Source: Phallus indusiatus
Lineage: Eukaryota > Basidiomycota > Agaricomycetes > Phallales > Phallaceae
Direction: 5' to 3'
DNA length: 64,000 bases
Assembly: GCA_027605045.1 (NCBI GenBank)
Contig: JAQFWX010000026.1
Location: forward strand, 186,001-250,000
Positions within the stretch are counted from its first letter, which is position 1; every line of letters begins with the position of its first letter. The notes beneath the pieces were generated by a model. That model was not told where the DNA came from. It made no database searches and saw only the letters and a list, made by a program, of their open reading frames with translations. Below, piece by piece: positions 10,766 through 64,000 of the stretch. The translations under genes were made by a program, and so were the position numbers.

Positions 10766-13368
10766 TTACAAACTAAACCATAGTTTATCATCTTCCTCAA
10801 TGTTTTTCAGGCAAACGTGAACCAAGTCATCATAGTCATCAACCGCGCTGGGAGCCTGAGAGGCGGTGGCAGTGGCTGTTGTATGCCCACGAAAGGCACT
10901 GGAGCGTTGTTTCTTGGCTACAGTTCCGGAATTGACTGATATAGAATTTGACCGAGTCCGTTTGTTGGTTTTTCCAGACGCATTGGAATTTGTGGATTCA
11001 ATCGTTTCTGATATTGATACCGATCCACTAGGCGTTGAAGTTTGGGGTGTTCCATGACTGGATTTCAAGGTGTCGCGATTTGTCCGGAATGGATCAGGAA
11101 CCGAAGGTCGGGGCCCTTGAATGGGAATGGGAGTATTTTCGTCTGTCATCCGTATGATTTCTTTAAGCAGAAGACGTTTGAACGCTTCGTGCGAATGCCA
11201 ATAGGGCATCCCCGGAAACCTCGACCAACACATACGGATATAGTCCCCCATGTCAGACAGCATTCTGGCCAGACAGTGAAAATCAGGATGTAGTTCTGTT
11301 TCCCACCTGTCACTATCATGACCCACAATATCAACCACTGTAGCAGGCTGGTGACGTGGATTCATACGAGAATGCATGATCTGCAATACGGTTATTTGTC
11401 CGACGCTGTTTATCCCGGCATATGGCTCACTTCCCAAGGGCCATGCTTTTGCAATGAACCATACAATAATCCAATACATCGACTCCATATCATGATGCGG
11501 CCGGTGAGGAGGAACAAGGTTACCAGTGACGAATGGGTCAACTTCTTTGACTTGTCCAGAAAGAACAGACGATAAATATTCATCAAATTCATCATACCGT
11601 TTCCGCCCATATAGTTGGGAATACTTCTCGAGTACTTCCTCTCCCAAGGATAGTCTCTGAAGAGTGATAGGCGGCTGAGGTTTGCTAATACGTAGGAGGT
11701 TATAGCCATATTTCTGGTAGGCGAGCTCACACGCCATGAACATTGGTGTACCCTTGATATACAGAGCATAAGTTTTAATTTCAAAAGAAGATTCAAGTGC
11801 CCCACCGTTCTTTGGGTCTCTTCCGTGGGATTTTTGCTATCCTCTATGAGCGCTGCGTTGTCAAAGTCAGTTAGCAAGCACAAAGGATCCGATTTCGGGT
11901 TTCCCCTGCGCGGGATCGTTTAGTAAATCATGAAAAAATATGATCGAGTAAAAAAAGAGCACGTACAGAATCTTCCCAATATTTGGGTGATCTAAGGTGT
12001 TGTCTTTTCCAATAAAATGACGAGGTTTGCACAGCACATTATACCAACTGATATCTCGGTGCAAAACACCCCGCTTCGCTACCTCTTCGTGTGCTGAAAT
12101 GGGTTAAGTGAGAACGGTAAAATAAGCAAGTGATGTATCTATATACCTTCTATAGCATCGTAAACGACTTTGAGAAAGTCCAGAACGCTTTTGCAGGCAC
12201 TTAGTCTAAGACCGATGCTTCCCATCACAAGTCGATGTTTCGTTCGATTTCCAGCGGTTAAATGATTGAAAACATTATCGGAAATAGGTCGGACCACCCC
12301 AGGAATAAAACCATCCCCGTGTATGAGGCGTAAGAGGTTTCCTTCTACGTACCGCCTTGAGTTATCCCTCCACATATCCTTTACTACTCGGATGGCTGAT
12401 GTGGCGTTTTCGTTGTCCCCCGTGTCATTGTTGCCAGCGCCAACTCCTATCCAGGTTCTTCTTCCGGATCCTCTCCTCTCGAAAACTGGCTGGATTCGAT
12501 AATCCTCTTTTTTGAACGAGATCTGCCATATGGCGGAATTATACGTGTCCTTCCAGACGATGTCATGAAGCCGAATAGACGTGTCCCGACCGAGGTCTTG
12601 AATGTATGTCTGATGAAGCGAATAGACATAATGAACTAGTTTCTCCAAACCGTCACCCCAACGGAATGACACTGATGTTTTCTGCGTGCATGCATCAACA
12701 TAATAAAATCGGTATCCGGTTTGATTGCAGGTTATGCCAAGCATGCTGACTTTATCGGGTCTGTGTTGCAGAATTGTTTCCAAGTAGTCAATGGACTGTC
12801 TCATTTTCCATTCCTTTTTCGGCTTGACTTCAACCATAGATTCTAAAATAGACCACGGACAACGAAATGAATCTTGAGGAGAATTGTCATCCTTTAACTT
12901 CGTTTTCTGAAGAAAAGGTTCGGAAATAGCCAATGGCGGCAACACTAGAATATCTGGAGCAATATGGCGAGTTTTTTGATGATTCTTTGCGGATGGGGCT
13001 TTGGTGAAAGAACAAAAGAAGTGAAGTGGCTGGCCATTGCCATTTGCGGAGACGTGTTGGGCGATCTTGGTGAAGATGTTCACAATATCGTCGTACATAT
13101 CTACCTCCTTGCGTGCTGATATAATAGCTTTGATAGACTGGGTAATAGAATCATCGTCCAGGTTTGGAATAGTGCCGAGAGGAACGAAGAAGTTTTCTAT
13201 AAAGTTAGGGTCTACCTCAGGATCATCTACAAAAGCCCTCTCCAATGTTGTCGAGAGTCTTGGACCTGAGCGTGAATATTTCTTGAGAGGTGTAGAATTA
13301 GAAAATTGTGTGTTTGAAGACATGCCTTCGGAAGATGAAGCGACTGGAGAGCTTTCTTCGCTCGTCAT
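10766..13368 (-). CDS. FunK1-type fungal protein kinase, copy 2 (intact)
   Basis: The start at 13368 (MTSEESSPVASSSEG) is chosen because the paralogue at 25406 starts at the same methionine, although the frame is open further upstream. Exon 1 runs to about 12147 and ends ..VVYDAIEG. After an intron comes AHEEVAKRGVLHRDISWYNV, the catalytic loop with HRD. A second intron leads to CLLTDFDNAAL, where DFD replaces the usual DFG, as in other FunK1 proteins. After a third intron GTPMFMACEL opens the last exon, which runs to IEEDDKLWFSL at 10766. The serine/threonine-rich tail near the end (SSHGTPQTSTPSGSVS, KRTRSNS) looks disordered. FunK1 proteins are expanded in multicellular basidiomycetes; their substrates are not known. 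Confidence 0.85.
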
Positions 13369-13560
13369 ATTTATATTTGGAATTGTGGACGACGTGTGTT
13401 GTAAAAGAACTGTCCACGCTTTAGAGCATGGGCAATGGAAGAACTTATAGTTTTCCACGATGGTCAAGCGGACCAACAGGACATGACTTTTGTCTGTGCC
13501 GTCCAAGAGAGAACAGGACGCGTTGGCGACGGTCGCGTCAAGCCGATGTCACGTGAGCGT
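13369..13560. repeat. Upstream region shared with FunK1 copy 3
   Basis: About 190 bp upstream of the start of copy 2 is nearly identical to 25407-25590 upstream of copy 3, including GACATGACTTTTGTCTGTGC and GCGTTGGCGACGGTCGCGTC. The duplication therefore covers the promoter region and stops abruptly after GATGTCACGTG. Confidence 0.75.
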
Positions 13561-21068: not shown

Positions 21069-21092
21069 GTCCCCTTCGGGGTGACATACGTA

Positions 21093-21123
<31 letters not shown>

Positions 21124-21192
21124 GGCCCCTGCACAAGGATGACACGCTAGTACAGAGTGGACGACCTTCGGGTCGCAATATTTATTTTGTCG
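21069..21192 (+). ncRNA. U6 spliceosomal snRNA
   Basis: The 5' stem GTCCCC-TTCG-GGGTGAC is followed by AATTGGAACGATACAGAGAA and GATTAGCATGGCCCCTGC, ACAAGGATGACACGC, which is the universal U6 core including the ACAGAGA box that pairs with the 5' splice site and AGC for U2/U4 pairing. Downstream of GACACGC the sequence is unusual: TAGTACAGAGTGG and then a hairpin CGACC-TTCG-GGTCG before an AT-rich stretch. A run of ten T (21193-21202) is the Pol III stop. The exact 3' end is uncertain; a usual length of about 105 nt would end near 21173. Confidence 0.92.
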
Positions 21193-21398: not shown

Positions 21399-21476
21399 AG
21401 GCCGTGCCCGGATTTGAACCGGGGGATTACAATTTCATCAAAGTTGAGAAATCGATGACTGTTACGCTACACGACC
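21399..21476 (-). tRNA. tRNA gene, isotype unresolved
   Basis: Read on the minus strand, GGTCGTG at the 5' end pairs with CACGGCC at the 3' end (seven pairs, one G-T). A TAGCGTAACAG segment fits the A box/D arm. The T arm CCCGG-TTCAAAT-CCGGG is perfect and contains the B box GGTTCAAATCC. TTTTT begins five bases after the discriminator, a good Pol III stop. The anticodon region is about five bases longer than normal, so a very short intron or an altered arm must be assumed, and the anticodon could not be fixed. It could be a decayed tRNA. U6 lies 200 bp away. Confidence 0.5.
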
Positions 21477-22831: not shown

Positions 22832-25406
22832 CTACAGACTGAACCATAACTTATCATCGTCCTCAATATTCTCCAAACAAATTTGAACGAGATTAGAAAC
22901 ATTACCAGCTGCCACATCCGAAGACGCAGTGGTCGCGTGTTCATGAAACACACTGGAGCGCTGCTTCTTGGTCGCAGTTCCCGAATTTGCTGATATGGAA
23001 TTTGAGCGAGGCCGTTTTGTTCTCCCGGATTGTTTAGAATTAGTGGACCCGACCGTTCCCGATCTTGATCCGCTGGGCGTTGAACATTGCGATGTCTCGT
23101 ACTTCGAGATGGATTTCAAGGCAACCTGGGCTGGGGTGGGTATCGTTGGAGGCCGAGGTCCTTGAATTGGGATAGGGGTATCATCTCTTGTCATGCGAAC
23201 GATCTCTTTAAGCAAAAGGCGTTTGAAGGCTTCGTGAGAATGCCAATAAGGCATGTCCGGAAACCTTGACCAGCACATGCAGAGATAGTCCCCCATATCG
23301 GACAACATTTTCGCTAGGCTTTGATAAGCGGAATGCAATGAAACTCTCCATCTTCGTTCTCCGTATATCAATAGATCAAGCACTCCATTGGGTCTGTGGC
23401 CTAGAGTCATACGAGAGTGAATAGTCTCCAATAGCTCCTTCTGATAGATTTTGTTTACAGGAGGATACGGATCTGTTCCTGTGGGCCATGCTTTCGCTAA
23501 GAACCATAAGATAATCCAGTATATTGACTCAATATCGTGATGAGGCTGGTGAAAGAGGTTACCAGTAACAAATGGATCAACTTCAGGCTTCCCGGAGATG
23601 ACAGAAGACAATAATGCGTTAAATTCATCGTATCGTTTCTGTCCGTAAACCCTGGCATACTTTTCGAGAACATCATCTTCAAGAGAAAATTGGGAGAGTG
23701 TAATTGATGGGCCGGGTTTACTTGATTGCAGGATATCGTAGCCTGTGCTTCCGTACACCAGCTCACAGGCCATAAACATTGGCGTACCCTATGAATAATA
23801 CATTGAATTTTAGGGCTGACAGGAAGGGGAGCACAACTGTACTGACCGTTCTTTTGGTACCTTCGCTAGGATTCTCATCGTCCTGAACGAGAGCTGCATT
23901 ATCGAAGTCCGTTAGGAGACAAAGAGGTTGCGAGTTTGGCTCCCTTCTGTGTCGCCGTGTATGAGAAGGTTAATCAGGTACTAAGTAGCTTAAAAAGCAA
24001 AAGTACATACAGAATTTTTCCGATGTTGGGGTGATCAACACCGCTGTTGTTCCCGATATAATGACAAGGATTGCATAGCACGTTGTACCAGCTGATGTCT
24101 CGGTGCAAAACGCCTCGTTCTACCACTTTCTCGTGGGCTATAAAAATGATGAATAACGAACGATACATAATGATGGAGAGAGAGTACCTTCTATGGCGTC
24201 GTAGATAACCTTGAAAAAATCGAGGACACTCTTGCAGGCACTCAGTCTAAGACCAGTGCTTGCCATCACGAGTCGCTGCTTCGTTCGATTTCCAGCAGTC
24301 AACTCTGAAAGAATACTGTCAGCAATCGGACGAACTATCCCAGGAATGTATCCATTCTCGTGAATAAGTTGCAAAAGATTTCCCTCTTCGTATCGTCTTG
24401 AATTGTCTCGCCACATATCCTTCACCACTCGGATGACTGAAGGGGCGTTTTTGTCGTCGTTCGCGTTGTTCGCAGTCCCCACAGCTATCCATGTTCTTCT
24501 TCCAGTTCCTCTTCGTTCGAATATCGGCTGGATTCGATAATCCTCTCCTTTGAAAGAAATCTGCCATATGGCAGAGTTATACGTGTCCTTCCAGACGATG
24601 TCGTGAAGCCGAATAGACGTGTCCCGACCAAGGTCTTGAATGTACGTTTGATGAAGCGAATAGACATAATGAACCAGCTTCTCCAAACCGTCATCCCAAC
24701 GGAATGACACTGATGTTTTCTGCGTGCATGCGTCAACATAATAAAATCGGTATCCGGTTTGATTGCAGGTTATGCCAAGCATGCTGACTTTATCAGGTCT
24801 GTGTTGCAGAATTGTTTGCAAGTAGTCAACGGACTGTCTCATTTTCCATTCCCTTTTCGGCTTAACTTCGACCATAGATTCTAAAATAGACCACGGACAA
24901 CGAAATGAATCTTGAGGAGAGTTGACATCCTGTGACTTCGTTTTTTGAAGAAACGGTTCGGACACAGCCAATGGTGGCAATACCAGAATATCTGGCGCAA
25001 TATGGCGAGTGTGTTGATGATTCTTTGCGGATGGGCTTTTGGTGAAAGAACAAAAGAAGTGAAGTGGCTGGCCATTGCCATTTGCGGAGACGTGTTGGGC
25101 GATCTTGGTGAAGATGTTCACAATATCGCCGTACATATCTACCTCCTTGCGTGCTGATATAATAGCTTTGATAGACTGGGTAATAGAATCATCGTCCAGG
25201 TTTGGAATAGTGCCGAGAGGAACGAAGAAATTGTCTATAAAGTGAGGGTCTACCTCAGGATCATCTATAAAGGCTCTCTCTAATGTTGTCGAGAGTCTGG
25301 GACCTGAGCGTGAATATTTTTTGAGAGGTGTAGAATTAGAAAATTGTGTGTTTGAAGACATGCCTTCAGAAGACGAAGCGACTGGAGAGCTCTCTTCGCT
25401 CGTCAT
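22832..25406 (-). CDS. FunK1-type fungal protein kinase, copy 3 (intact)
   Basis: Start at 25406 (MTSEESSPVASSSEG). Exon 1 runs to about 24190 (..VIYDAIEG); then AHEKVVERGVLHRDISWYNV with the HRD catalytic loop, then LCLLTDFDNAALVQDD, then GTPMFMACELVYGS and the last exon to IEDDDKLWFSL at 22832. The exon-1 protein is almost identical to copy 2 (only a few dozen changes in about 400 residues), while the last exon has many changes and small length differences. The C-terminal tail is rich in Ser, Lys and Arg (KRPRSNSISANSG), suggesting a disordered, possibly nuclear tail. Function beyond kinase-like fold is unknown. Confidence 0.85.
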
Positions 25407-25590
25407 ATTTATATTTGGAATTGTGGACGACGCGTGTTGTAAAAGAACTGTCCACGCTTAAGAGCATGGGCAATGGAGAAACTTGTAGTTTTCCACGATG
25501 GTCAAGAGGACCAACAGGACATGACTTTTGTCTGTGCCGTCCAAGAGAGAACAAGACGCGTTGGCGACGGTCGCGTCAAGCCGATGTCAC
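25407..25590. repeat. Upstream region shared with FunK1 copy 2
   Basis: Counterpart of 13369-13560; similarity ends after GCCGATGTCACGTG. Confidence 0.75.
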
Positions 25591-25984
25591 GTGTGTGACC
25601 CGGTGTTCCCTGTACTATCATCTATGTAGGGCGACGGTAAGTCTAGAACGACAATGAGTTGACAATGAGTCGATGTGATAGTGTAGCTTTCTGTTAGACG
25701 AAGATATTAGCTGCTAAGAGTAGTTCAAGCGCAATAATTCCATCGAAAATCAGAGTAACTTCGGAAACTTATGTCTCTACCAAGTTATTTCAATTTGAAA
25801 TGCGCACTTTTTTTGTTGTAAATAACTTAGGTATTCAGGTACTCAATAATATATGTCAACGAGAAACACTGCTTCATAATAATTACACTTCACTGTGACT
25901 TCAGCTAAATAGCAAAGAAGACATTCAACATAACCGTGGCGCTACACATACATACACTACAAATTCCAGACCGTGGTCCGTTAG
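25591..25984. other. Spacer between FunK1 copies 3 and 4
   Basis: No gene. Contains ACATTCAACATAACCGTGGC-type 3' flank shared with copy 3. Confidence 0.4.
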
Positions 25985-28360
25985 CTACAAAGTAAACCAC
26001 AACTTATCATATGAATAAAAACGAGCCCGTTTTGGTTGTTTAGAATAAGAGGAATCGGCCGTTTCCAAACTCGATCCGCCAGAGGTAGAACATTGGGATG
26101 CCTCGTGAAGCGGGTTGGGTACCGAAGGCCGAGGTCCTTGAATTGGAATAGGAGTGGCGTCTTTTGTCATACGAACGATTTCTTTAAGCAAAAGACGTTT
26201 GAAGGCTTCGTGAGAATGCCAATAAGGCATGTCCGGATACCTTGACCAGCACATGCAGAGATAGCCCCCCATATCAGACAGCATTTTTGCAAGGGACTGA
26301 AAAGCTGGATGTAATGCCAGCTTCCATCGGTTATGGTTATAAGCCAGAATACTAAGTGGTCCCTCAGGCTGGTGATGTGGTGTCATACGAGAATGAATGA
26401 CCTTTAATACGTGTGGTTGACCGAAATTATTCATTCCACCATATGGCTCAGTTCCCATTGGCCATGCTTTTGCGATGAACCATACGATAATCCAAAACAT
26501 GGATTCTACGTCATGATGTGGGCGATGGCAATTTTGAATAAGGTTATCGTCAGAGAAAGGATCTATCTCTTTAACGATTCAGGAAAGTACTGATGAAATT
26601 TGTTGATTAAACTTGTCATATCTTCCCCTTCCGTAGATTTGGGTATATCTTTCGAGGACTTCGCCTTCGAGAGATAGCTGGGAGAGGGTAATGGCGGGAC
26701 AGGTTAAATCAGCACATAAAACATGGTGGGTGTATTCTTTGTAACTTAGTTCACAAGCCATGAACATCGGTGTACCTTTCGAATATGCTATGAGTCTCAA
26801 CCACAAGGAGAGATATCAAGTGTACCAACCTTTCTGTGTGTCTCTTCATTCAGATCTTTGCAGTCCTCCATGAAAGCTGCATTGTCAAAGTCAGTAAGCA
26901 AACACAAAGGTTGCGATCCCGAATTTCCCCTGAACACGGCGAGTCACAATTATAATATGAAAAAAACGAAATGACGAGGACGCACAAAATTTTTCCAATG
27001 TTCGGATGATCTATAGTGTTGTTGTTCCCGATACAATGACGAGGTTTGCACAAAACGTTGTACCAACTGATGTCTCGGTGCAAAACACCTCGTTCTACTA
27101 TTTTCTCGTGGGCTGTAAAAATGATGAGTAATAATACATGATGCATGATGAAGAGATGTACCTTCTATTGCGTCGTAGATCACCTTGAAAAAATCAAGAA
27201 CACTCTTGCAGGCACTCAATCTAAAACCGATGCTTGTCATCACGAGTCGGTGCTTCGTTCGATTTCCAGCAATCAATTCCGAAAGAACGCCATCAGAAAT
27301 CGGACGAACTATTCCAGGAATAATACATTCTCGTGAATACGTCGCAAAAGATGTCCTTCGTCGTATCGTCTAGAACTTTCTCGCCACATATCCTTCACCA
27401 CTCGGAATGCTGAAGGGACATTTTTGTTGTCATTTGTGATGTTTGCGGTTCCGACAGCTATCCATGTTCTTTTTCCACGTCCTTTTCGTTCAAATATCGG
27501 CTGAATTCGGTACTCTTCTCCTTTAAAAGAAATCCGTCATATGTCAGAGTTATGCGTATCCTTACATATGATGCTGCTCAGTCGGATGGTCGTATCTTGT
27601 CTTAGGTCATCTAGATATATCCGATGCAGGGTATATAGGTAGTGGATTATGTTCTGAAGACCATCCTCTCAGAGAAATGACTGTGAGGGTTTTTGTTTGG
27701 AAGCATCGACGTAATAAAATCGATACCCGATTTGGTTGCATGTCATCCCCAGGACACTGATCTTATCGGGTCTGTGCTGGAGAACCGTCTCAAGGTGGTC
27801 GATGGACCGTTTTATCATCCACTCCCCTCCTAGTCCGACTACGACCATAGATTCTAGTATAGACCACGGGCATTGAAAGGAATCAGAAAGGAGGGATTGC
27901 TTTGTCTTCACCTTCTGTAGGAATGGTTCCGAAATATCTCCGGGTGGTAAAACTAAGATATATGACGCGTCTGCCTCGAGTGTTTTGCGGGAAGAGCATG
28001 ATTGTGAGAGCACAAAAAGTGGAGTGGTTCTTGAGAGGAATTGTGCCCAATGCTACACACTAAACGAGCAATTTTGTTGAAGATGTTGACGAGGTCGTCG
28101 TACATGTCGAATTCTCTGGGTGCCGATGCGATGGCGAGGATAGACTGCGTAACTGAATCATCCTCCAAAGTCGGAATAGCATCAAGAGCAACGAAAAAGT
28201 TTTCTGTGAAATGGGGATCTATCTCTGGGTTATCAACTATTGCGCATCTAGGGCCCGAAACCACGTTCGTTTCAGAAAGTGGAGAATCAGAGAACTGTGT
28301 GTTTAAAGACATGCATTCAGAAGACGAGGTGGGGCGACTTTTGTCGTTCGTTGTATTTTT
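25985..28360 (-). pseudogene. Decayed full-length FunK1 kinase, copy 4
   Basis: All parts of the gene are present in order but broken. The start codon position equivalent to MTSEESSP now reads TTNDKSRP, so the ATG is lost; the next in-frame ATG is MSLNTQFSDS. A frame change falls near 27960-28010 between RQTRHIS and SYILVLPP, and stops occur after KQKPSQSFL (27669) and elsewhere. Later pieces AHEKIVERGVLHRDISWYNV (about 27060-27115), LLTFDNAA-like sequence, GTPMFMACELSYKEY (about 26740-26775) and YWIIVWFIAKAWPMG to DKLWFTL at 25985 follow in changing frames. It is a pseudogene of the same family as copies 2 and 3. Confidence 0.8.
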
Positions 28361-29682
28361 ACCATTCAAATTGTGGACAAGTGAGAGAAGACCGGAATTT
28401 GGACGGCTGGTTGAGGGCAAATGGAGAAGTTTTATAGTGATCACCTTATTTGTTTAAGGTGCGGACAAAGTGGAGAACACGACGGCGGACCGCGGACGCG
28501 TTTATCACGTGGCGTCGTGCACGTACGGCCTCCAGTGTGGCAGTATTGAGCGATATTACTCTGGTGTTCAAGTGTCGTTACTATCATCTAGTACTCAAGA
28601 ATATCCTGTACAGTTTTTATCCCTGGAGCTCCAAGGTCTAAGACCCAGCTCAAAACATTATTATATATGAAATTATTTACTGATGATAGGCCTTCAAATT
28701 GAGGTAATACAGTAATAGATTTTCAATCAACGAGCACTATTACCATGTGGCTTACATTGATGAACAAATTGTCTTTCATACCGTACATTACTATCTGCCC
28801 AAAATACATTTGATTATTGACATTTGTCCCGAAAGACTGGAAAGATTCTACTTGCGTTTCCACTAAGGCAACCCGGCCCCCCCGGGTCCTAGAGTTGACG
28901 CCGAAAAGATATGACGAGAATGCATATAATATAAAATAGGAAGAGAACCAGTTCATGTGATTGTGTATGTCGTACGATATTTGAGGCTTTCTCAGGATTA
29001 TGTTGAGCCTATGGCACTGGCAGGATAAAAGTTAGTTAGCAGCGGTCGTCGGGCATTTCGGATCGTCCAGCGTGGCGCCCAACGTGTGATCCCGCAGTAA
29101 AAAAGCGAGAGGAAGGGAATACTTCGATAACGGACATGAAAATATTGAGGCTTTGGTGCTTTTTTAACCCAGAGATATATGCCTACCACTCAGACTCGGA
29201 TGTTGGGTTAGATAACTATGTAGTCGCATTGCAATAGATCGTGTGACATTCTTGATTGGGTGAAGACGCGGCGCAGTCATTTGCCAAGCGAATTGCATTT
29301 GCCACAAAAGAAATCAAAAAGAAATTTGATTTAAGCTTGCTAGGCATAGCTCCGGTCCTAACTTCTGAACACACGTCATCGAGCGGCGAGGCGGAGCAAT
29401 ACGTAAAGAAATCATGACGGTGCTCAAGGCTGCACGATCGCGCACAAGATCAAAGAATCACCTTTGAGAAATCCATCCTTGATGTATACACATACTCCTT
29501 TTGCAGTGTCAATTATGACGGTGAGAGCGGTGAACGGGTTGCGGAATGGGCACCGGTCACGACTGCGCGCGCCTATTAGCGGGCGATTTGTCACAACGGA
29601 TATTACGTAAAAGCTTTTTCGGTAGTACTGCCACACATTTCAGAATTGAACGACACCTTCTCCACCCCATTCATCCTCTTTC
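28361..29682. other. Spacer at the border between accessory and conserved regions
   Basis: No gene recognised in 1.3 kb. About 29356-29545 is the diverged partner of 6676-6845. Confidence 0.4.
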
Positions 29683-50067: not shown

Positions 50068-53000
50068 ATGTCGCGCAATAAAGTGAATAATGTCTTATCG
50101 GCCTTTGACGACGCCATCGCTGACATTATTGATATTCCTACCGACGATGACGACGAAGATATCGGAGAACTAACGTCCTTACACGGGAAACGACCTCTGC
50201 AGGCGATTACAGGCAATGGGTCTCATTCTGAAAACCCGGCGAAACGACGAAATACCAATACAAATCGTAATGAAGCTTCGCTCTAAATCATTGTCTTTCT
50301 GATAACATATTCGTCCAGACCAGTTTTCACCTTCCACCCGACCTGGCCAACTTCCAGAACCGGCCTTTGACATGGCAAGGTCTGGCGGTTTCTTCATAAA
50401 AACTCAGTCGTACTGAACGCTTTATCTTAGGCTATTTCCGAATGCGTTCCAGGAACAACCTGTATCGGTATCCGCCAATAACGTGCAGGTATTGACAGAG
50501 AATCAAAGAATAGGACCACCTTTACCCGACGCGCTTGAGCATCTTGGGTTATCACAGTAGGTTTAAAAAGGAATTTCGGCTCTAACACTACAATGAAATG
50601 TTTTCTAGCCCTTCTGATCTGATCCAGGGCTTGGAAATTAAGTTGATGAAGCACCAAATTATTGGTGTATCTTGGTACTTATTGATCTATCATCAAGGTG
50701 CTGTTCGGAACCACTGACTGCATCACAGGATGCTGAAACAAGAGTTTGATCGTCAGAAGAAGGGAGGGATATTAGCGTACGTCTTCTGCCTCAACTGTTC
50801 CGAGTCAAATCTGTTTCACACCTGCTTTTAGAGACGAGATGGGTTTAGGCAAAACTATACAAATTCTCGCGTTGATGGTACTAAATCCGCGTGGGTCGAC
50901 ATATGAAAAAGAGTCCGTCGGTGATACAACTGACAAAAATAACAAAATTCAAAAGTCTGGATTTTCGAAAACAACACTGGTGGTTGCTCCAGCTTCTCTA
51001 CTTCGGCAATGGAAGGAAGAGATCGAAATGAAATCTCAGGAAGGCCTATTCCGGGTACATATTCATCATGGGAAGGAGAAGTTGAAGTCTGTCAAGGAAA
51101 TAAGGGCCTTTGATGTAAGTTTGTGTCGTATGCCAATACATCCCAGGGCTTATACTTCTCAGATTGTCATTGTTTCTTATCAAACGCTTATGGCTGAATT
51201 TCCGAGTCAACTTGACAAATTGGATCAATCTGGATGGTTACCTGAACATGGGTAAACGCATACCAACTTAAACAGTATATTGATCATTCTCGCTCAATGC
51301 TTTATTACAGAGGTCCTCTCGCTCGTATGAAGTGGCATCGCATTGTCTTAGACGAGGCCCAGGTTATACGAAACCGGCTAACTCAATCTGCGCAATGCAT
51401 TTTTCGTCTACAAACTAATTATCGATGGTGCCTTTCTGGCACACCGATATTCAATGGAGTGTCTGACATATTCTCATATCTGAAGATTTGTCAGCCTGGA
51501 ACATATAGTTGGGATGTTTTCAACCGGAATATTGTCAGTGTCACTCCGCATCTGTTAACTCCACACAAAGTGTTCATATTTCTGTTACATAGTGTCAAGT
51601 AGAAACTCACGATCCTGCCAGAGCTAGTGAGAGATATTTTCGCATTTTCCCCTACTGTTTCTATAATCTATTTCAGCTTCCCTTGCCAATGAATGGCTAG
51701 AACCATTAATGCTCAGAAGAACCAAATTAAGCAGACTTGTGCGTCTCTCATATCTTTCATGGCAGCTCGCTGATCCTTGTATCAGGATGGTCGCCTTATA
51801 TTGGAGGAACTTCCCCCCAAGCATATTGAAATCGTTGAACTTGAGTTCAGTGAGGGCGAGAGAAAGGTATATGGTAGTCTGTCTATCGATTTCACGCTAA
51901 CTTGTTGTATCTTAGATTTATGATGAACAGGCTGCCAGAACTGAGAGAACCATCGGTGAGCTCGTATCGAAAGGTTTAGAAGAGCAATAGTAAGCTTGAC
52001 TTTTTCGAAAACGTTGACTGAGTATTGAACAATTTCGTTTAGCCATATGTTTATACTCGTAAGCGATCAACATTACCTGCCAGACCTTCTGTTCATCAGC
52101 GTTCTAGGTTCTTATTCTTCGTCTTCGACAGCTGTGTGGACATCCCAGTCTAATGCTGGTACGTCAATTCAGTATGGCTAATAGAAATGTTTTAAATTTG
52201 ATATTCAGGCTCTGAAAGATCCTACGAAAGACCCCAATTATATGTCCAAGTTAGAGAAGGAAAAGACACTTAACAGGGCTAGACGAGAATTAGGGAGGCC
52301 ATGGGTCGATCGAGTTGGTAGTCGTGGTCCTCCGTTTCGTTCTTCAATTCTGATGTGGCGCTGTAGATGAAGGCCGCATTTAGAGAGCGAGCAATGAAGC
52401 GAGACTCGATGGTAAAAGAAGACACTCTTGAGTCTTGTATTCGGTGCCGCGAAGGTATGGTCTCTCAGGCAAAAAAATTGATTTATTTTCTGAAATGCGG
52501 GATCGTAGTGATGGAAGGAAACGCTATGCTTGTTGCTTGCGGTCATATGGTTTGTGCAGGTATATCTTTCAATTATGTATTTATCGTGTTAAATTTCTAA
52601 ACTTATTTCTGAAGATTGTTTGGATGATTTGGCCAAATCAGAAATGCGTACGAATGGAGATATGTGAGTCCATGCAGTGACCACCTTTTAGCGCAATATG
52701 GTTAACCGGCGCTTAGGGAAGAATTGGAGGCAGATGAAGGCTCTGTTTTACGACCATGTTCATATATTTTATTCTTTACGTTTACGCGAAGGCTGACGAC
52801 ATGTTCGTTTAGGTCCGACATGCAAGATGTTTATAGATCCCAACAAGGCTTACAAGGCGGCAGCCTTCCAAGTTTCCGAAGAGGAGTTGGTATTTGGCGG
52901 GGCTGGATATCGTGAAAATTTGGCCGCGGCCACGACAAAGAAAAAAAGAAAAGAAAAGGATGCGGATATGGATTCAGACGATGAGTTGCCAAGTGCCGAC

Positions 53001-54287: not shown

Positions 54288-54748
54288 TAGTTTGGGTCGT
54301 ACCAGTTTTAACTAGCTTTGCCAGGTTCAGACTTAGATATAGGACGGATGTATTGATTACATGCCAATTATTCCTTAATTTACCATATTTTTTCTTAGAA
54401 TTGCTCGAAACCTCTACTGGAAACACGCTGAATTCCACTGGGACAAAATTCTCCTTGTAACTCAACACTTTCGCCAGACGAGTTTTTACCCCCATCTGGA
54501 CGGCAACTTGCAAGCTTTAAACAGCGAAAAGGTCAGAAAAAGCAATGTCCGATGTCGACCTCAAGGAGTTCATTGCGTCATCTAAAAATGTGCGTAAAAG
54601 CACTTCAAGTTCCTCTTCCTTCCTTACCGATTAGGTATACTTATGATTTATGACATGTCATTACAAGACAGAGTTACATGTATGCTAAGAAATCTTCGAT
54701 TTACAATCTTACTCAAGCCAATGCCGATTATTCTGCGTACTGTTCGCA
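54288..54748. repeat. Spacer with dispersed repeat (54401-54468)
   Basis: TTGCTCGAAA...GACAAAATTCTCCTTGT (54401-54460) is repeated at 59192-59250, and GTGCGTAAAAGCA near 54590 recurs near 59466, so about 200 bp is shared between the two places. A short possible first exon MSDVDLKEFIASSKN followed by GT lies at 54545, without a continuation. Confidence 0.5.
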
Positions 54749-55424
54749 AGTAGTGTTGGGTACAGTTTGGTTCGAAACCGCGGAAACCGGTTTGAGAACT
54801 GAACTAAAACCACGATTATCCAAATTACCGAACTGGTTTGGAACCGGTTTCACTAGAGCAAATGTAGCTAGATTTCGTAGAATGAAAATAGCTTCCGAAC
54901 TGTATAGTTCGGAGGCAGATCATCCACACACAAACATCAGTGACCTTTCCATGAGTCTGCATCATTGGGCTGAACGCTACTTGAATGAGCCAGTAACCAC
55001 CCATCCAGATGGCAGTGGTCCTAGTAGTTTGGCATACTGGAAGGTATTGGAATATCAATATCTTTATGAAATGACTGAATTTAATTCCGTGTAGTCCGTT
55101 CAGCATGTATATCCACTTCTCAGCAAAATGGCCATTGATTATCTTGCGATTCCAGGCTCCTCTACTCCAGTGGAACGTGTTTGGAGCAGCGCTGCCGATA
55201 CCGATACGAAAAAACGAAATAGGCTGTCATCGGATCATTTATCAGCTTTACAGCTTCTTAAGATGGTGTATAGACGAGAGCGGGAGCAAAAACTGTCTGC
55301 AGAGGAGATGGCGAAACAGAGGGAGGAAAGATTGAGGATCATTGAGGAGGCAGACTGGGCGTGCGATCTTCCTGATCCTAAACTGCTTCAATTTCCAGAA
55401 TTTTTGCTTGATTTATTAGATTAA
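54749..55424 (+). mobile_element. hAT transposase, C-terminal fragment
   Basis: From about 54885 the frame reads MKIASELYSSEADHPH, SLAYWK, and after an intron (about 55043-55108, GT-AG) YPLLSKMAIDYLAIPGSSTP, VERVWSSAADTDTKKRNRLS and SALQLLKMVYRRE, ending LLDLLD at 55424. This is the hAT C-terminal dimerisation domain, placed next to the last part of the catalytic fold. The N-terminal BED finger and most of the catalytic region are missing. The upstream TAGTGTTGGGTAC followed by AAACCGGTTT-type repeats (54749-54860) looks like a hAT 5' end, suggesting an internally deleted element. No matching 3' terminus was found. Confidence 0.75.
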
Positions 55425-56316
55425 TTACTGATTATACAAGTACCTATGGCCGGGTTACTGCCGAAAAACGGAAGAGGAAGTTGTGCACAACTTTCTCTTG
55501 ACTTATTATCACTCGATACAGACTCAGTAACGATACGACGACTCGGACTCACCTTCCAATTACTTCATGGAATGAATAGCAAGCTAGAAGTCATGAAAGT
55601 ATGTATCAACGTCTCGTTTGGTTTTAACTTTAGTACAGGCTTCTCCATACGCTATCATACACGCCGGGCTAAATTTGAGTTTTGTGCGATACTGTTACTG
55701 TACGTAACATTATTAATGTTACTTCGGTTTAACTATATCCTAACTGGAAGGTTGAAATACGAAGTGAAAAGAAGGAACATTGTCACATATTGTCCCCTTT
55801 CGGTTCGCAAACGTAAATATGTTGAATATTAGTAGATTCTTGAGCACTTAGATGCATCCGCACCATGCACGTGAAAGTCCGAATGTCATGCTGGTCTAAG
55901 ATGTGCGACGAAAAATGATTACCTGGATTTGGTTGGCGGAATTTTGAGCAAACTATCTTGTGCGGGTTTTTTCAATTGACTGGGCTGCGGCTTTACATTG
56001 AAGGACTGAATATGCTCTATAACGCATAATTCAACTTGAAGTTTAGAACCTTTGACGTCAATGATTAAGTGTATTGTGTTGAATCAATTTGGAATCAATT
56101 GATGGTTAGGCGATCCGGCTGAGTCAGCCAAGAGTCTAAAGATCACTAATGCAGAACTTGCTTAGTTTGAACATGACCGATTTAACTGGTGAACACCGTA
56201 AAATTTTATTCGTCCTAGCCGGCGTGTCGGCATGCTTCACATGAAGCTTTACGCACATAAAAGCAACTTGTAAACTCACTGAGAAAACTTAGAACTACCA
56301 GACTCGAAATTTCAAA
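55425..56316. repeat. Left part of a segmental duplication, upstream of HsbA copy 1
   Basis: Pieces such as AATAGCAAGCTAGAAGTCATG (55573) and GTGCGACGAAAAATGA recur at 62423-63030 in the same order. No gene recognised. An ACATAAAAGC TATA-like site lies at about 56257-56266. Confidence 0.65.
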
Positions 56317-57172
56317 ATGATTTTCTCCTTGGTCATCCTCTTGATCACATCTCTGACCATTATCGTATCTCCAGCAACACTGAATACGAAGAGAGCGTCC
56401 AGCACTACAATTCTGTCTGATGTTGAAGAGCTGATGGCAGACATGGTACGCGACTTCATTTTCGTCCTCCAGGTATTCTTCACAATGAAGTTTATAGTTG
56501 GATTTGGGTACTGCGATCGATAATATACCTGTGACTGGACCCAGCCTTGGTAATGTAATCGTATGTCGTCTTATAAAGTCTTTTTAGCACTCGCACTGAG
56601 TCGTTCTTTCCTAGACAGCAGTAATGAACGGGTTAACCGCGTTAGCGACAATAACTAAACTGACTTTGGATGCTGAGGTGACGATGGTTTAGACATCCGA
56701 AACGACATATAGTAATTAGCCTATAGAACCTTCCAGCACCAGTTGACCTTACGGACGCCGAAACAATCCTGGAGCAGATGACGGCGCTTCAAAGACAAGC
56801 AATTAACATCATAACAGCTTTGCAAGCTAAGGAAAGCACGATAGAGAGTGCGCTTACCGGAATTGGATCCTTTGCATTGACCAATGGTAAAAAGCGTACC
56901 GACGTGAGTAATACTGTAAACATTTGATATTTGGACATCGACCGTAATACCGTGGTTTTGGTTTTAGGCCCTGATTCAAGCATTAAAAAAGCTGCGCCTG
57001 TACGTTTTTGGCTTGTTACGGGAGTATTGTTAATAAACATGCTAACTGGCGTCTTCAGCCTGAAATAAACCAAGAAACTATAGCAAACTTACAAAATGGA
57101 TTTGATACCGCATTGGCAGCTGCTTCAGCAACCTTCCCATCTTGCGATTCTTTAATCAGCATAAACTTGTAA
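56317..57172 (+). CDS. HsbA-like secreted hydrophobic-surface-binding protein, copy 1
   Basis: The start MIFSLVILLITSLTIIVSP is a signal peptide, followed by TKRASSTTILSDVEELMADM. After an intron to a TTTATAG acceptor (about 56496) comes LDLGTAIDNIPVTGPSLGNV, then TAVMNGLTALATITKLTLDA, then NLPAPVDLTDAETILEQMTA and ESTIESALTGIGSF. This arrangement (secreted, helical, repeated Val/Ile and threonine-rich helices) is that of HsbA, a fungal family binding hydrophobic surfaces and recruiting cutinase-type enzymes. The last exon reads PEINQETIANLQNGFDTALA to TAA at 57170-57172, but its junction with the exon KKLRL is off by one base, so the end is uncertain. Confidence 0.75.
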
Positions 57173-57793
57173 GGAATGGCGGAATGATTGGTTAACAAGT
57201 AGGACAGCCTGTCACGGTAGTGTTATCTACACGAGTTTAAACTTACTATGCTCCGGTTCTGCAATTGGCTTGAGTACTCCAATTTCAGATTACCTCGAAT
57301 GTTATAACGTCCTAGTATGAAATATTTACGTTGAACAGCTCTGCAATAACAGCAAGTTTATCAGTCCCCTTTTTCGAAAGTGACTGCTTGAATGTTGGTA
57401 TTTCGGGATTCTCACTTCTGAATTCTGCTTCAAAAAACCAAAAGTCTAGTCAATAATATCTCCTGCTCCCACAGAACATCTTAATAGTATAGCGTCGATA
57501 GCTTAGGTTAAACTTGGACTTGGAGCTTGACAAGAGAGGTTTATGGGCGTCTAATAAGCTGATGTAATAACTAAATTCATCTCAGCTTACATAACACCTC
57601 TTTCTCAGCCTTGGTCTAAATAGTAAATGGACTCCGGAGTTAACCTCGAAAATGACGATCTTAGTCTGCTCATTCATTCGCCCTCGGGGTGAAAATCCCA
57701 GGTCTCTTTTGGACTCGATTGGGCTGTTAGAGTTGCCCACCAAAGACAAAATACACAAAAATCTTCAAGAAGAGTTTCTATTGAACGCCCTCA
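57173..57793. other. Spacer
   Basis: About 620 bp without a recognisable gene, between HsbA copy 1 and the miniature element. Confidence 0.4.
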
Positions 57794-57801
57794 GATAGAA
57801 T

Positions 57802-58537
57802 TAGGGCTCCCCACCGTACCGTAAACGGATACGGCCGTACACTATACGGAAAAAATACGGACCAAGCCGTGCCGTCACCGTACCGTATTGTCACTTCCAG
57901 GTAGCCTCGACGGTACGGGTACGGGCAAAAAACGGCCGTTTACGTCCGTATTACGGATACGGTTGGGTTTAGATTCAATTTAGAGCATTATAGAGTATTA
58001 TTCACACACCTATGTATCCAATCATCTAAAATATCATGAATAGGTGGCTACAAAGGCGGCGTAATCGTATATACGCTGAAAAATGGGCGAAATCTACTGA
58101 CTTGTGGTGTGACATGCATGTGACATATGATATGTGACGCATGTGACAGAAGATTGCGTCGCTTTAAACCGACCCTGACCACTTCATTAGCGCTCACCTC
58201 AGTTTGCCGAATAGGAATGTTCAACTCAGACTCGTTTTTTTTTAGATGGATGGCGCGGGTGCCTCGGGTTTTGCCTCAATAGGGTCAAATTTGAGACGGA
58301 GCTGCCAGAGTAAAGGTAAAATTCACTTGAAATTCACAGTTCACCTAAAACTACTTACAGACACCGTATAGCCGTATTTACGGCCGTAAACGGCCGTTTT
58401 TATACGGGCCGTATCCGTATACCCAAAATCTTCAGACGGCATACGGCCAAATCAACCAGACTCGAGTTCGGTACGGATACGGCGCCGTAATACGGGTGCC
58501 GTATATACGGGCTATACGGCTACGGTGGGGAGCCCTA
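57802..58537. mobile_element. Non-autonomous hAT-type miniature element (736 bp)
   Basis: Inverted ends TAGGGCTCCCCACCGTA (left) and its complement at the right (TACGGTGGGGAGCCCTA) are perfect over 17 bp. The flanks are GATAGAAT at 57794-57801 and 58538-58545, a perfect 8-bp target duplication typical of hAT elements. Subterminal regions are full of ACGGCCGTA and TACGG words in both orientations (57820-57965 and 58365-58525). No coding sequence is visible, so the element depends on a transposase elsewhere. The perfect target duplication suggests a fairly recent insertion. Confidence 0.9.
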
Positions 58538-58609
58538 GATAGAATTCCTGTGCATTGGCTAGGAATTTATCAAATGTAAGCTGTGAACTAAAGATATATT
58601 TGTTTTGCA

Positions 58610-59097
58610 TGGTTAATCTCATGACAGACAGTGGGAAAGCAAGCTTTTTGTACCGTCTTTGCTACCATTAGCTCCCTTTTCTTCACCTACCAAAATCGAG
58701 CTAATTCGAACTGGGTTAGATGGGAAAGTAACAGGATATGTTGAAGTGCGTCGGTTTTTGTACGTACCCTCTTCAGACAATAATCCGCTTATATAGGTTA
58801 ACAATCCAGCCCCAACATCTAGCATCACATCCACATCTCTTGACCGTCCCTCAGGTCCCGCACGAACATTTGTACGCGGCAAAACGGGAAACTCACCCTT
58901 CTTACCTGGCGGATTAGAAGATTTAGTCAAATTGGGCGATAAAATTGTGCTCGATCGCACTCAGTCAGATGCCCAGCTTTTGAGCGTGCCTCCTGGTTTC
59001 CCGCGCGGGCTGGATTTACCTGGTGAGGAGAGCGAACGTGTTGTCCTTGGCGGCGAATTGGAACCGCTTGGCTTCAAAATGGATGTCGACACTAAGG
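58610..59097 (+). pseudogene. SKI2: SKI2 RNA helicase fragment (N-terminal region only)
   Basis: One reading gives QWESKLFVPSLLPLAPFSSP and KIELIRTGLDGKVTGYVEVR, and after an intron of about 36 nt (58767-58802) TSLDRPSGPARTFVRGKTGN, SPFLPGGLEDLVKLGDKIVL and a stretch ending GFKMDVDTK before a GT. This is the N-terminal region of SKI2, the DExH helicase that feeds RNA to the cytoplasmic exosome. No helicase domain follows; at 59192 the dispersed repeat begins. The start of the gene is also missing, with the hAT element ending just 70 bp upstream. It is a truncated relic. Confidence 0.65.
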
Positions 59098-59654
59098 TAT
59101 TAATAGATTTTATCGAAAGACGTGGACACGTTAAACTGCAGTCTTTTGAGTATCGGATTCCTTCCACGCCAAGTTTATTCTTCTCTCAAAGTTGCTCGAA
59201 ATCTCTGACAACACGCTGAATTCAGCCGGGACAAAATTCTCCTTGTGAACCAATGTCTTCAAATCAGTGATCTGAGTGTTATCTCTGAAGCGCATCCCGT
59301 GGTCTGGAAGATGTGCTTCAGAGATAAAACCCGGATCACCGATATAATTGGCTTCGCCGGAAAGTCCTTGCTGACATCTGGACGACAAGTCCGAAATACA
59401 AGAACAGGTCTAAAAAGCAAGTGGTGTCCCACGTGGCCCTAAGAATTTCACATTGCCTCATATGTATAGGGGACGTGCGTAAAAGCATTTCTCCTGCCCA
59501 CAAAGCCATACTTAGGTTCAAGTAAGCGCCGAGTATTTTGGGTACTGTTCGGGAGTCGGTCATAACTACAATAGGCTGACTCGACTCTGTATGATGGACG
59601 GCCACAGCTACTTTATTCTTTAGATCTCCAAATTCCACTAATTGTATCAGATAT
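59098..59654. other. Spacer with dispersed repeat (59192-59250)
   Basis: Second copy of the repeat seen at 54401-54468. The short frames here (for example minus strand 59336-59668) have no family resemblance. Confidence 0.4.
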
Positions 59655-59996
59655 TTAGAAGAAATCAATGCATTGCTGTAAATTATTTAAGATACTGTAG
59701 ATAGACTTGATCCATAACCATAACTTACATTGTTCAAGCAGACACACTCAGAATTATTCGGGACGGTGCTACACTGCGCACTGTTCGTACATGGTTCACC
59801 GGTGAAGCAGTTCAGCTGTCTTTCATCGTGGTTCTTGATTGCCTGGAGGGGGCCATTCTCTGACTGTTTGGTTCAGTTAGCGTAGCACTGCGTGGCAGTG
59901 AGATCAAAAATCACTTACGACGTCGCGACGGAGGCTCGCTGTTTTAACAAGGACAGTCATAGCAAGCGTGGTGAGTGATAATATGAGAATTTTCAT
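59655..59996 (-). CDS. Small secreted six-cysteine protein, 77 residues
   Basis: Three exons, all below the length at which single open frames are noticed: 59996-59919 (26 codons), 59863-59729 (45 codons) and 59675-59655 (six codons plus TAA). Both introns are GT-AG (GTAAGT donors, CAG acceptors) and fall exactly between codons. The protein starts with a signal peptide, MKILILSLTTLAMTVLVKTA, then LRRDV (a possible processing site). Its C-terminal half has six cysteines spaced C-x5-C-x5-C-x8-C-x-C-x4-C, closing NNQCIDFF. A TATA box (CATATAAAAG on the minus strand, 60071-60079) lies about 80 bp upstream of the ATG. Such proteins are typical effector or defensin-like candidates; no family was recognised. 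Confidence 0.75.
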
Positions 59997-60070
59997 TGTG
60001 AAAGTGCTCTTTTACTTTAGGTATAGCTTTCGAGTCGGGAGTACTGTACCTGAGGGAGAAAGCTTCTTGC

Positions 60071-60079
60071 TTTTATATG
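60071..60079 (-). promoter_or_regulatory. TATA box of the cysteine-rich protein gene
   Basis: CATATAAAA on the minus strand, about 75-83 bp before the start codon at 59996. Confidence 0.6.
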
Positions 60080-62409
60080 CTCTCAAATACCACTTTCGTA
60101 ACAATAAGCCTGGCTCAATCTAATATCTATACCTTTATCCCGTTCCACGTGAGTCGAGTCATCTATCAGGGGCAATGGAGCTTCGACAGGCGAACAAAGT
60201 GATTTTTAAGGCTGCGGATCCGGACCGACGACGGTGAAGATTCCATTTTTCTGATGGAACCCAAATTCGTCGCTTGCGGATACAGAGCGATGGCAGAAAG
60301 TGGATTTTCACTCGAGGAATAGGAGTTTAAAGTTGAATAGTATGGACGTAGATGTTCTACTTTGCAAATTATTCGCCCGTTTAAAGGACTTACAGTGAAG
60401 GTTAGTAATCTAGTCTGACTACAGTATGCCGTTCAGCCAGGATCTACATTGGAAAAGAGAAGCCTTCACTTCTAAAGGTGCAGCGGGTGGCTGATAGATC
60501 ATTTCATATGGCTGCTCCTGTACAGCCTCGGAGTAATCACTTGCAAAAAAGGGCTCACAATCATTATCCGTCAATATCGATGTTTAAACTCCTCGGATGG
60601 ACGTTAACGTTCAAAGTTCAGCCATATGGATTCTAAACTGGGCTATTTCAAGAAGAATCCGTGAGAAAGTAATTTGAAATTTCTCATACCTGCCAGAATT
60701 ACGAACTTATCCACGGTCTTCTTAGGCTTGGTAATTCTTCGGCTTAGATTGCCTCGTAAAAATCCCTCTGCTTCAAAACATGCCAGGATACCGAGTAACT
60801 CAGAGTATATTGGGTTTGCAAGCTGGGACACTGTAATAGGTACCCTCGGATGTTATATCATGTATAACATCTGTCAAAATGTATCAATCTTAAACCCTGC
60901 AGGAGAAGAAGAATGCTCGATACACGAAGTAATGTATATATGTGCGATCAGTTTTATATTATCATAAAGGATCTGATTATGGTTGAGAAACTTGAACACG
61001 AGCCCACTGATTACTACTGGCAGTGATACACCATGAGAAGTCTTAGTATACAAACCTGAATACTAAGTACCGAGTAATATTTGTTGATCATCTGGCCACA
61101 GCCGGTGCAGGTCACTGATAAATGGTACAAATAAATTCCACATACTTTATAGGTTGGTAACATTTATGCGATGTTGGTCTCTCCTAGCGGAAATTGCGAC
61201 CGCTGAGTTGTATGCTAATAGAACGTGCCTGTTCAACGTACTACAGTGAAGAATGTATATGAACAATAGTCAATGAGATAAACAGTTACGCCTACTCAGA
61301 TGCCCTCATATGTGATGTAAGTATCCGGTATGCAAGTATAGTTCCGGTGAGAAATCACGAGTGCGCTGGAGAATTGCTGGAGAATACACATCGCACATGG
61401 CGCATCACGGCGCGCCTTGATTTCGTTGTGATTAACCAATCTAATCTTCATGTTATGAAAGACCAATCAAGAGATCTTTAAAGGTAGTGAAGTGGTGTGC
61501 TGTTAGCTTGAAGAGCTCTCGCGAGTCGCGATGACATTATATACAACCGCCTTTCAACCGCCATTCCTTCAATACGTTACTCAAAGTTCAGGCTTGGTCC
61601 CAATTTCCTGACCGAATTCAGTGGTATTGTTCTTGAACCATACAACCTTTCCTGAAGATGTTGAATGGTGAATTTCAGCCCAGCAGTCACTAGTCACTTT
61701 GATGTCTACTATCAGGATTCAGGATCAGCCCCATTCTCTGGAATCAATTCAGTGCCTACTACATGCTCAGCGTACTTTTCCAGGGAGAAATTCACAATTC
61801 AATTTATGTTAGTCAATTTGATCATGCGTTTCTATACGACAACATATGTGTAAAAATATTACCATACCCAACCGTTTTGTGACCGTTTTATATCTCGAAT
61901 TTGAGACCTCGCGTTGGAATATTGGAGAATATTCTCAGAGATTTTGGAGATCGATGTGAGATCTTGAAAATTCGAAAATTGAACAAAATCTCACGGTATA
62001 CTATCCTCCTGGTCTTCGCACGGTTAAATGTCGACCCGTGTTTAGGACGGTTGTCTCCGTACACATTGACCAGTTTAAAAGATAGGCGGCTTAGGAATAC
62101 GAGGGGTACAATAGGATACCAAAAATGACAATATCAGTGTAATGTGAGATTCCCACTCGGATGGTCCTGATAAGTCCATTCGACTTGATGATATATGCTT
62201 AATACTATGACCGGCACAATCTTCCCCTGTCCGTGGAGTTAAGATTTTTCATTGAGTCGTCTGTACTCCTTTCCTGCTACAATAGATATGTAGATTATCT
62301 TTCGTCGCCAAAAAAAATTCAATGGAAAAGGGCGTTGAATACAATCTCTTTGAATTGTTTGTCTTTCGATGCAGATGGTACGAATGAATTGCGCTTCAAT
62401 TGTTTTGCT
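60080..62409. other. Spacer with no firmly supported gene
   Basis: At 60674 a frame opening with TTG reads KFLIPARITNLSTVFLGLVI and later LGCYIMYNIC and EEECSIHE, loosely like the cysteine-rich gene to its left, but the ATG is absent. A TATA-like ATTATATACAA at about 61535 has no clear gene behind it. Confidence 0.35.
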
Positions 62410-63734
62410 TTATTGGAATAAATAGCAAGCTAGAAGTCATGGAGGTCCTTCTACCCTTCGTGGCGTGTAAATCCAGCTGATAAAATTGAGTAACGTCTCG
62501 TCGACTTTGACTTCTTCAAGACTTTAGTACGGGTTCCCCTTGCGCTATCATCTGATACGCCGAGTTAGAGTTGAGTTCCGTGTGATACTGTACATAACAT
62601 TTATATGAAAAGATAAAACGACAACGTTACTTGGTTCAAAAAGAGAGATGGCTGTATATATTAAATATACAAGTATGCTGCAGTCTAACTAACTCCTAAT
62701 CATAAGTACGCAAATAATATATCTACTAAAAATCACCTGTTCACATGATACACTGGCAAAGAGAGTCTAGACACGTGGACACCTGTAATGCAGACATGTA
62801 AGACGAAAAATAGAGGAGGAAAAGTGGCGCTTCAAGTTGAAAAAATTCATAACATCATTGTCATACTATACTCCTTTTGAGTTCGCAGTGTCTGTTTCAA
62901 TACTAGAATTAGTATATTCTCAGCAAAACATGGATTAAGATCCATCCGCACCATGCGCGTAAAACTTTGAATGTAAATTCATGCCAGCCTGCTCGAGGTG
63001 TGTGACGAAAAATGAGCATCTAGGTTTGGTTGGCGAAATTCCAAGCAAACTAGTGTTCTTTGCGAGACCTTTCAAAAGCTAAAAAAGGCTGAAACGAATT
63101 GTCGTGCCAGAAGATGTGAAAGATGGCAGCGACAATCGGAAAAAGCGTAAAACTCCAAAGGGACTTCAAGTCTAAAAAATCTTGCCAAATGTATTCAATT
63201 GACTGGGCAATTCTGCGGCTTTCCATTGAAGAACTGAGCATAACCGCTCTGCAACGCGTGACTCGATTTTAGAACATCTCACGCCAATACATTGAATGAC
63301 TGTTGTGTCGAATGAATTGATGGTGGTTAGGCGATCCGACTGAGTCAGCCAAGAGTCTAGAGAGAGATCACCAATAATGCGGAACTTGGCTTGATACGTT
63401 GCCCTCCGGGATGGAAGGATAGAAATAGGAGTATCAAACACTCACTTTCTCAAAGAGCACTGCTCTGGGCCATGTGGAGCTAATAGTAAATTTTGAACTA
63501 CTTAAGAAAGGTGCCGTAAGTGACTATTGTGTTGTTATTGAATGAACAGGAAGATTAGGAGTTCGCTTCAAACTAGGACTACTAACACGACCGATTTAGC
63601 AGGTTGGACACCGTAAAATTCATTTATCCTAGTCGGCGTGTCGGCATGTTTTACATAAAGTTGGACAATGCACACATAAAAGCAACTCGTAAACTCACCA
63701 AGAAAATTACCATTGACAGTCTCGAATCTTCAGA
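62410..63734. repeat. Right part of the segmental duplication, upstream of HsbA copy 2
   Basis: Collinear with about 55557-56316, with insertions and deletions: AATAGCAAGCTAGAAGTCATG at 62423, GCACCATGCGCGTAAA at about 62950, GGCGATCCGACTGAGTCAGC at 63330 and CGGCGTGTCGGCATG at about 63634 all have counterparts. No gene recognised. Confidence 0.7.
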
Positions 63735-64000
63735 ATGATTCTTTCCTTTGTTATCCTCCTCATCACATCTCTGACAATTTTCGTATCTCCGGCAACGGTG
63801 AATACGAAGAGACAGTCCAGTACCGAAAAGATTCTGTCTAATGTTAAAGAGCTGATAGAAGACGTGGTACGCGATTTCATTTTCGTCTTCAAAGTATCCT
63901 TCACAACGACGTTATAGTCGGATTTTAGTACTGCGGTTGATAATATACCTCTGACTGGAGCCAGTTTTGGTAGTGTAGCCGTACGTCGTCTTATAAAGTC
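63735..64000 (+). CDS. HsbA-like secreted protein, copy 2 (runs off the window)
   Basis: MILSFVILLITSLTIFVSP is a signal peptide, followed by TKRQSSTEKILSNVKELIED and, after an intron with a TTATAG acceptor (about 63917), SDFSTAVDNIPLTGASFGSV. It parallels copy 1 exon by exon. An ACATAAAAGC TATA-like site lies at about 63673-63682. Only the first two exons are in the window, so whether it is intact is unknown. Confidence 0.7.

Follow-up and report, generated by a model that had tools for sequence, protein, structure and literature searches.

A putative three-exon gene for a secreted six-cysteine mini-protein in a stinkhorn genome

Introduction

Can a gene that is split by two short introns, and that ends in an exon of only 21 nt, be recognized in raw genomic sequence, and what would its product be? 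The question is raised by a locus in a stinkhorn contig, for which an earlier note had proposed a hidden three-exon gene encoding a 77-residue secreted protein. The stretch of DNA that was analysed (the window) is 64 kb in length and corresponds to C125:186001-250000, i.e., part of contig C125 in an assembly of 67,222,576 bases and 206 contigs. By similarity, a DCN1 gene within the window places it in the stinkhorn lineage: among the best 120 of 330 matches, the best named match is from Clathrus columnatus (63% identity), the next named sources are Hysterangium and Gautieria, and closer still, at 85% over 57% of the length, is a metagenome protein.

Many secreted proteins of fungi are small. 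In PMC7105643, fungal small secreted proteins (SSPs) are described as having a signal peptide and fewer than 300 amino acids; they account for 40-60% of the secretome in fungi, and orphan genes encode most of them.

Structure of the candidate gene

The candidate gene is on the minus strand; position 60079 is at its promoter end, and its stop codon ends at position 59655. Its features, in window coordinates, are:

60071..60077, minus strand: TATA box (TATAAAA), starting at 60077, 81 nt upstream of the ATG
59919..59996, minus strand: exon 1, 78 nt, with the ATG at 59996, the leader, and RR at residues 23-24
59864..59918, minus strand: intron 1, 55 nt, phase 0 (GTAAGT...CTAAC...ACAG)
59729..59863, minus strand: exon 2, 135 nt, which encodes the pro-region and cysteines 1-5
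59676..59728, minus strand: intron 2, 53 nt, phase 0 (GTAAGT...CTTAA...ACAG)
59655..59675, minus strand: exon 3, 21 nt, QCIDFF and stop (TAA), including cysteine 6
59612..59617, minus strand: AATAAA, resembling a polyadenylation signal, 38 nt beyond the stop codon

The exon lengths, the perfect phase, the consensus splice sites and the product of 77 amino acids had all been claimed in the earlier note, and on inspection all are exact; the spliced model has neither a frameshift nor an internal stop. The donors are GTAAGTGA (intron 1) and GTAAGTTA (intron 2), and the acceptor is ACAG in both. A branch point sequence, CTAAC, lies near the 3′ end of intron 1; intron 2 has CTTAA only, without a strict CTNAY. 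In the DCN1 gene, alignment to the Clathrus protein leaves two gaps of the size of introns (21 and 24 residues, or 63 and 72 nt), thus the intron size of the candidate gene fits this genome. The TATA box reported ahead of the gene is indeed there, and TATAAA is unique on the minus strand within 59500-60200.

Splicing determines what can be read from this locus. The unspliced frame stops inside intron 1. Retention of intron 2 gives an intronic stop and five cysteines, an odd number, whereas its removal gives six. An alternative in-frame acceptor for intron 1 (making an intron of 76 nt) leads to a 70-aa isoform in which the cysteines are unchanged. That single-frame ORF searches do not see the gene, as the earlier note stated, is mostly correct: of exon 2 they show no more than its inclusion in a 61-aa stop-to-stop frame.

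Predicted protein

The spliced product of 77 amino acids has a hydrophobic leader with a lysine at residue 2 (K2), RR at residues 23-24, and six cysteines in the pattern C-x5-C-x5-C-x8-C-x-C-x4-C (loops of 5, 5, 8, 1 and 4 residues), which is precisely the spacing claimed previously. The leader, which is signal-peptide-like, passes a simple hydropathy rule. The RR pair may be a Kex2 site. The net charge (K+R-D-E), calculated for assumed rather than mapped mature ends, is -3 for the cysteine core and -5 for the segment after RR. When exon 2 plus its read-through was folded alone, strands were placed at 30-33 and 40-43, around C3-C5, with a pLDDT of 49; this model is of low confidence and represents the contiguous frame, not the spliced 77-aa protein.

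Relatives and copies

In a set of 5.8 billion proteins, no candidate had three 5-residue words in common with the 77-aa protein, which is a weak negative, in that the search covered candidates of about 42-135 aa and a fast-evolving or unannotated orthologue could escape it. The set includes proteins from Clathrus columnatus (63% identity for one conserved gene). No PDB chain matched the protein up to E 10. Within its own 67-Mb assembly, queries of 77 and 41 aa found only the exons of the gene and of a copy on contig C155 (4 and 2 matches) in a loose first look from which remote paralogues may escape. A sensitive local tblastn of 294 kb of C125 together with L007-L010 and L016 gave no credible match, the best non-self one (E 0.043) crossing a stop, and a scan of the 294 kb for the five-cysteine pattern returned the candidate gene and six other frames resembling chance. 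No second locus was found. The earlier note had spoken of a possible undescribed family and had looked to homologues with conserved cysteine spacing; what these searches leave is a single orphan gene, with no paralogue in the 67-Mb assembly and no homologue in the word-based search. Without a homologue there is no conserved cysteine spacing, thus the term “family” is not supported.

The copy on C155 is identical to the candidate gene and lies near the end of that contig, in the opposite orientation. There are 0 substitutions between C125 and C155 from window position 51786 to about 68000 (C155 about 301500-317738), with seven gap columns, none of which is in 57000-63999; beyond this block the divergence is 0.4-3.5% per kb. 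The substitution-free block is about 16 kb long, and where it ends the divergence rises sharply to about 2%. Either loss of heterozygosity or assembly overlap can account for the identity: the two nuclei may be the same in this block, or the assembler may have used one set of reads twice. The two copies represent either alleles or an assembly end that was duplicated, rather than paralogues. As the C155 copy is identical, it provides neither a test of selection nor an independent confirmation of the gene.

Genomic surroundings

The candidate gene is flanked by members of a tandem array:

55969-57385: HsbA-like gene 1, flanking the candidate gene
63583-64810, past the window end: HsbA-like gene 2, on the opposite flank
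C125:252609-254005: HsbA-like gene 3

These three genes are 81-84% alike, and the array has at least three members. The name (HsbA, hydrophobic surface binding) comes from one exon frame of gene 1, with a Pfam match of E 0.00067 that is below the curated cut-off; the N-terminal frames of genes 1 and 2 have no Pfam match.

Between HsbA-like genes 1 and 2 there is a duplicated N-terminal fragment of Ski2 (57586-57802 and 58532-59170; Pfam E 9.5e-17), interrupted by a 737-bp repeat (57802-58538). The fragment is 85-94% like C125:262625-263459 overall, with the copy at C125:262625-263264 at 94%. The repeat, of about 737 bp, has at least 8 other nearly full-length copies in the genome (91-100% identity, with a score of 100% for three), a lower bound that comes from scoring 40 of 46 candidates; two of these copies, one on C125 and one on C155, may be allelic. 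It is perhaps a young mobile element or a solo LTR. Just beyond the Ski2 fragment and the repeat, the candidate gene lies within about 1.2 kb without other matches (59344-60510). The interval between HsbA-like genes 2 and 3 is about 1.8 kb, and nothing in it matches the Ski2 fragment, the 737-bp repeat or the gene. It is probable that the block of Ski2 fragment, repeat and gene was inserted behind one copy of the array, or that one copy has lost it.

Other features of the window were also noted. There is an inverted repeat at 59258-59343, just downstream of the candidate gene, and 59176-59246 is 81% like 54386-54458, near the C-terminus of a hAT transposase at 55095-55424. Several genes resembling Pkinase_fungal (PF17667) lie in 10766-13548 and 22832-28453, of which 24138-25457 is over the cut-off (E 2.7e-15), 22832-23788 has E 0.031, and the others are alike by eye. 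A U6 spliceosomal RNA gene (86.5 bits) and, on the minus strand, a tRNA-Ile predicted with bacterial settings lie at 21069-21183 and 21399-21476.

Gene or chance?

The alternative to a gene is chance, i.e., an unconstrained stretch in which splicing happens to yield a reading with six cysteines, or else a gene that has decayed and is no longer expressed. Repeat-rich and duplicated surroundings speak for this alternative, as does the lack of homologues in the word-based protein search. Its frequency was estimated with a scan for models in which an ATG and leader are followed by one or more introns and which encode 50-120 aa, with a GTRNGT donor, a YAG acceptor, a CTNA branch and introns of 45-80 nt; the leader had to pass a hydropathy rule, and six cysteines had to fall within 45 residues. 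The scan of the 64-kb window gave one locus (two isoforms), which is the candidate gene, and this was also the only locus to pass in 294 kb of real contig (C125:76001-370000). Any model at all appeared in 4 of 1500 order-3 Markov windows (exactly six cysteines in 2 of 1500) and, when 64-kb sequences were simulated with an order-5 Markov model, in 2 of 1500 (exactly six cysteines in 1 of 1500); knottin-like loops, a pattern defined after the gene had been seen and widened to admit it, appeared in 0 of the 1500 order-5 sequences.

The chance rate thus lies between about 1 in 375 and about 1 in 750 windows, under rules loosened after the fact, and it applies to the scan pattern only, a pattern picked for the earlier note after the whole window had been viewed. 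A first, stricter scan (CTNAY branch, higher hydropathy threshold) had found zero models in the window, missing even the candidate gene, and 300 random windows had yielded one; the likely reason for the miss is that intron 2 has no CTNAY. The branch rule and the hydropathy threshold were loosened after that. Both the miss and the late choice of pattern count on the side of chance, as does codon usage, which gives the gene no support: its score of 0.026 bits per codon is matched by 36% of random 231-mers and compares with a minimum of 0.033 in the training set (the lowest of 35 chunks from nine ORFs), a comparison that flatters the training set, as the same nine ORFs served both to train the score and to test it.

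Against these points stand the rarity of passing models in random sequence, a reading that runs without a stop or frameshift, and the TATA box and AATAAA, which are outside the scan rules and add weight to the case against chance. Chance is therefore an unlikely account of the locus, and the proposal of a gene for a secreted six-cysteine mini-protein is, on the anatomy of the sequence and the chance test, well supported. We consider it likely that this is a real gene for such a protein.

Comparison with known classes of protein

What class of protein would this be? The ending C-x-C-x4-C is common to many cystine-knot peptides. Squash trypsin inhibitors and cyclotides end in C-x-C-x4/5-C and have first loops similar to those of the candidate, which differs from them in kingdom, in sequence, in its longer loop 3, and in having no assignable inhibitory residue. 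In PMC6889267, the cystine-knot formula is given as six cysteines separated by X2-7, X3-10, X0-7, X1-17 and X4-19, with disulfides I-IV, II-V and III-VI. Four of the five loops of the candidate fit; loop 3, with 8 residues, is one over the formula, and for this reason the protein is not classed as a knottin.

The same paper describes MLP124266, a rust cystine-knot effector candidate that is a homologue of AvrP4, has a solved knot, and belongs to a family of 13. The candidate shares with it a charged N-terminal part, six C-terminal cysteines near the knot spacing, and a leader that here would be a signal peptide, so that a host-directed effector like the AvrP4-like knottins of rusts comes to mind. 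However, the candidate has no detectable similarity to solved chains, no Pfam family is over its cut-off, loop 3 exceeds the range of 0-7, a single locus was found where MLP124266 has a family of 13, and the source organism is probably no plant pathogen. To our knowledge, the source mushroom is not known as one. Dictyophora indusiata, the probable source, is described as an edible and medicinal fungus (PMC9948255). An effector of this kind is highly improbable.

The size, the leader, the pro-region and the six cysteines match the general layout of cysteine-rich peptides, which would also suit a peptide that the mushroom secretes as an antimicrobial. Such peptides usually carry a positive charge (PMC8085091), but the candidate has a negative net charge in both segments, and the -3 of its cysteine core disfavours the antimicrobial suggestion of the earlier note, leaving this role very unlikely. 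A new effector or antimicrobial family is thus not supported, either by any relative or by charge.

A further possibility is a degenerate EGF-like or EB-module protein. The spacing C-x5-C-x5-C-x8-C-x-C, together with PC-x-N before C3, recalls the first part of the EGF motif, and the EB module (PF01683) is the sole Pfam hit of the protein (residues 47-73, E 0.11). Yet its 13.1 bits are below the curated cut-off of 24.3, and the only EB match in the mushroom's own genome (an 86-aa frame, E 1.06) is also below cut-off. EB is a nematode-type module. The last loop (C5-C6) of an EGF-like domain has at least 8 residues, whereas that of the candidate has 4, which is too short, and there is no Pfam EGF hit. 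A degenerate protein of either type is quite unlikely.

With fungal orphan SSPs, as PMC7105643 presents them, the candidate shares a length under 300 aa (77 aa), a signal-peptide-like leader, orphan status, and the lack of a known domain. It does not differ from them in kind; it is very short, and is split by two introns. It is plausible that it is one more orphan of this known class, which forms much of fungal secretomes.

Proposed function

The explanation that we favour, and hold as a whole to be somewhat better than evenly balanced, is that the gene encodes a lineage-specific small secreted cysteine-rich protein of the SSP/orphan class, with an acidic cystine-knot-like domain. The mRNA, the expression of which we infer, would be spliced at the two short introns. 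Judging from its sequence, the leader would direct the chain into the secretory pathway and then be removed, and a Kex2-type protease may cleave after RR24. The C-terminal residues (about 35), with three disulfides, would form an acidic cystine-knot-like mini-protein with a β-hairpin around C3-C5, to be released outside the cell. Outside the cell, such scaffolds usually act by binding or inhibiting some protein that belongs to another organism. By analogy, the mini-protein would do likewise, its target being, e.g., a protease; given the net charge of -3, a role as inhibitor, ligand or signal is more likely than one as a classic antimicrobial peptide. A bolder version, which is a long shot, is that a cystine-knot-like secreted mini-protein of a type not described before was born in the stinkhorn lineage and acts on another organism, in which case the targets could be, for example, digestive proteases of spore-carrying flies, or soil competitors.

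A mini-protein with a last exon of 21 nt can thus be read from raw sequence, although ORF searches easily overlook it. Its expression would give this mushroom order a candidate knot-like protein; there was no knottin-like protein of a stinkhorn among the literature matches listed, from a search in which subscription papers were mostly outside the scope. Flies carry the spores of stinkhorns, and this insect dispersal would give the candidate, if expressed, a testable ecological role.
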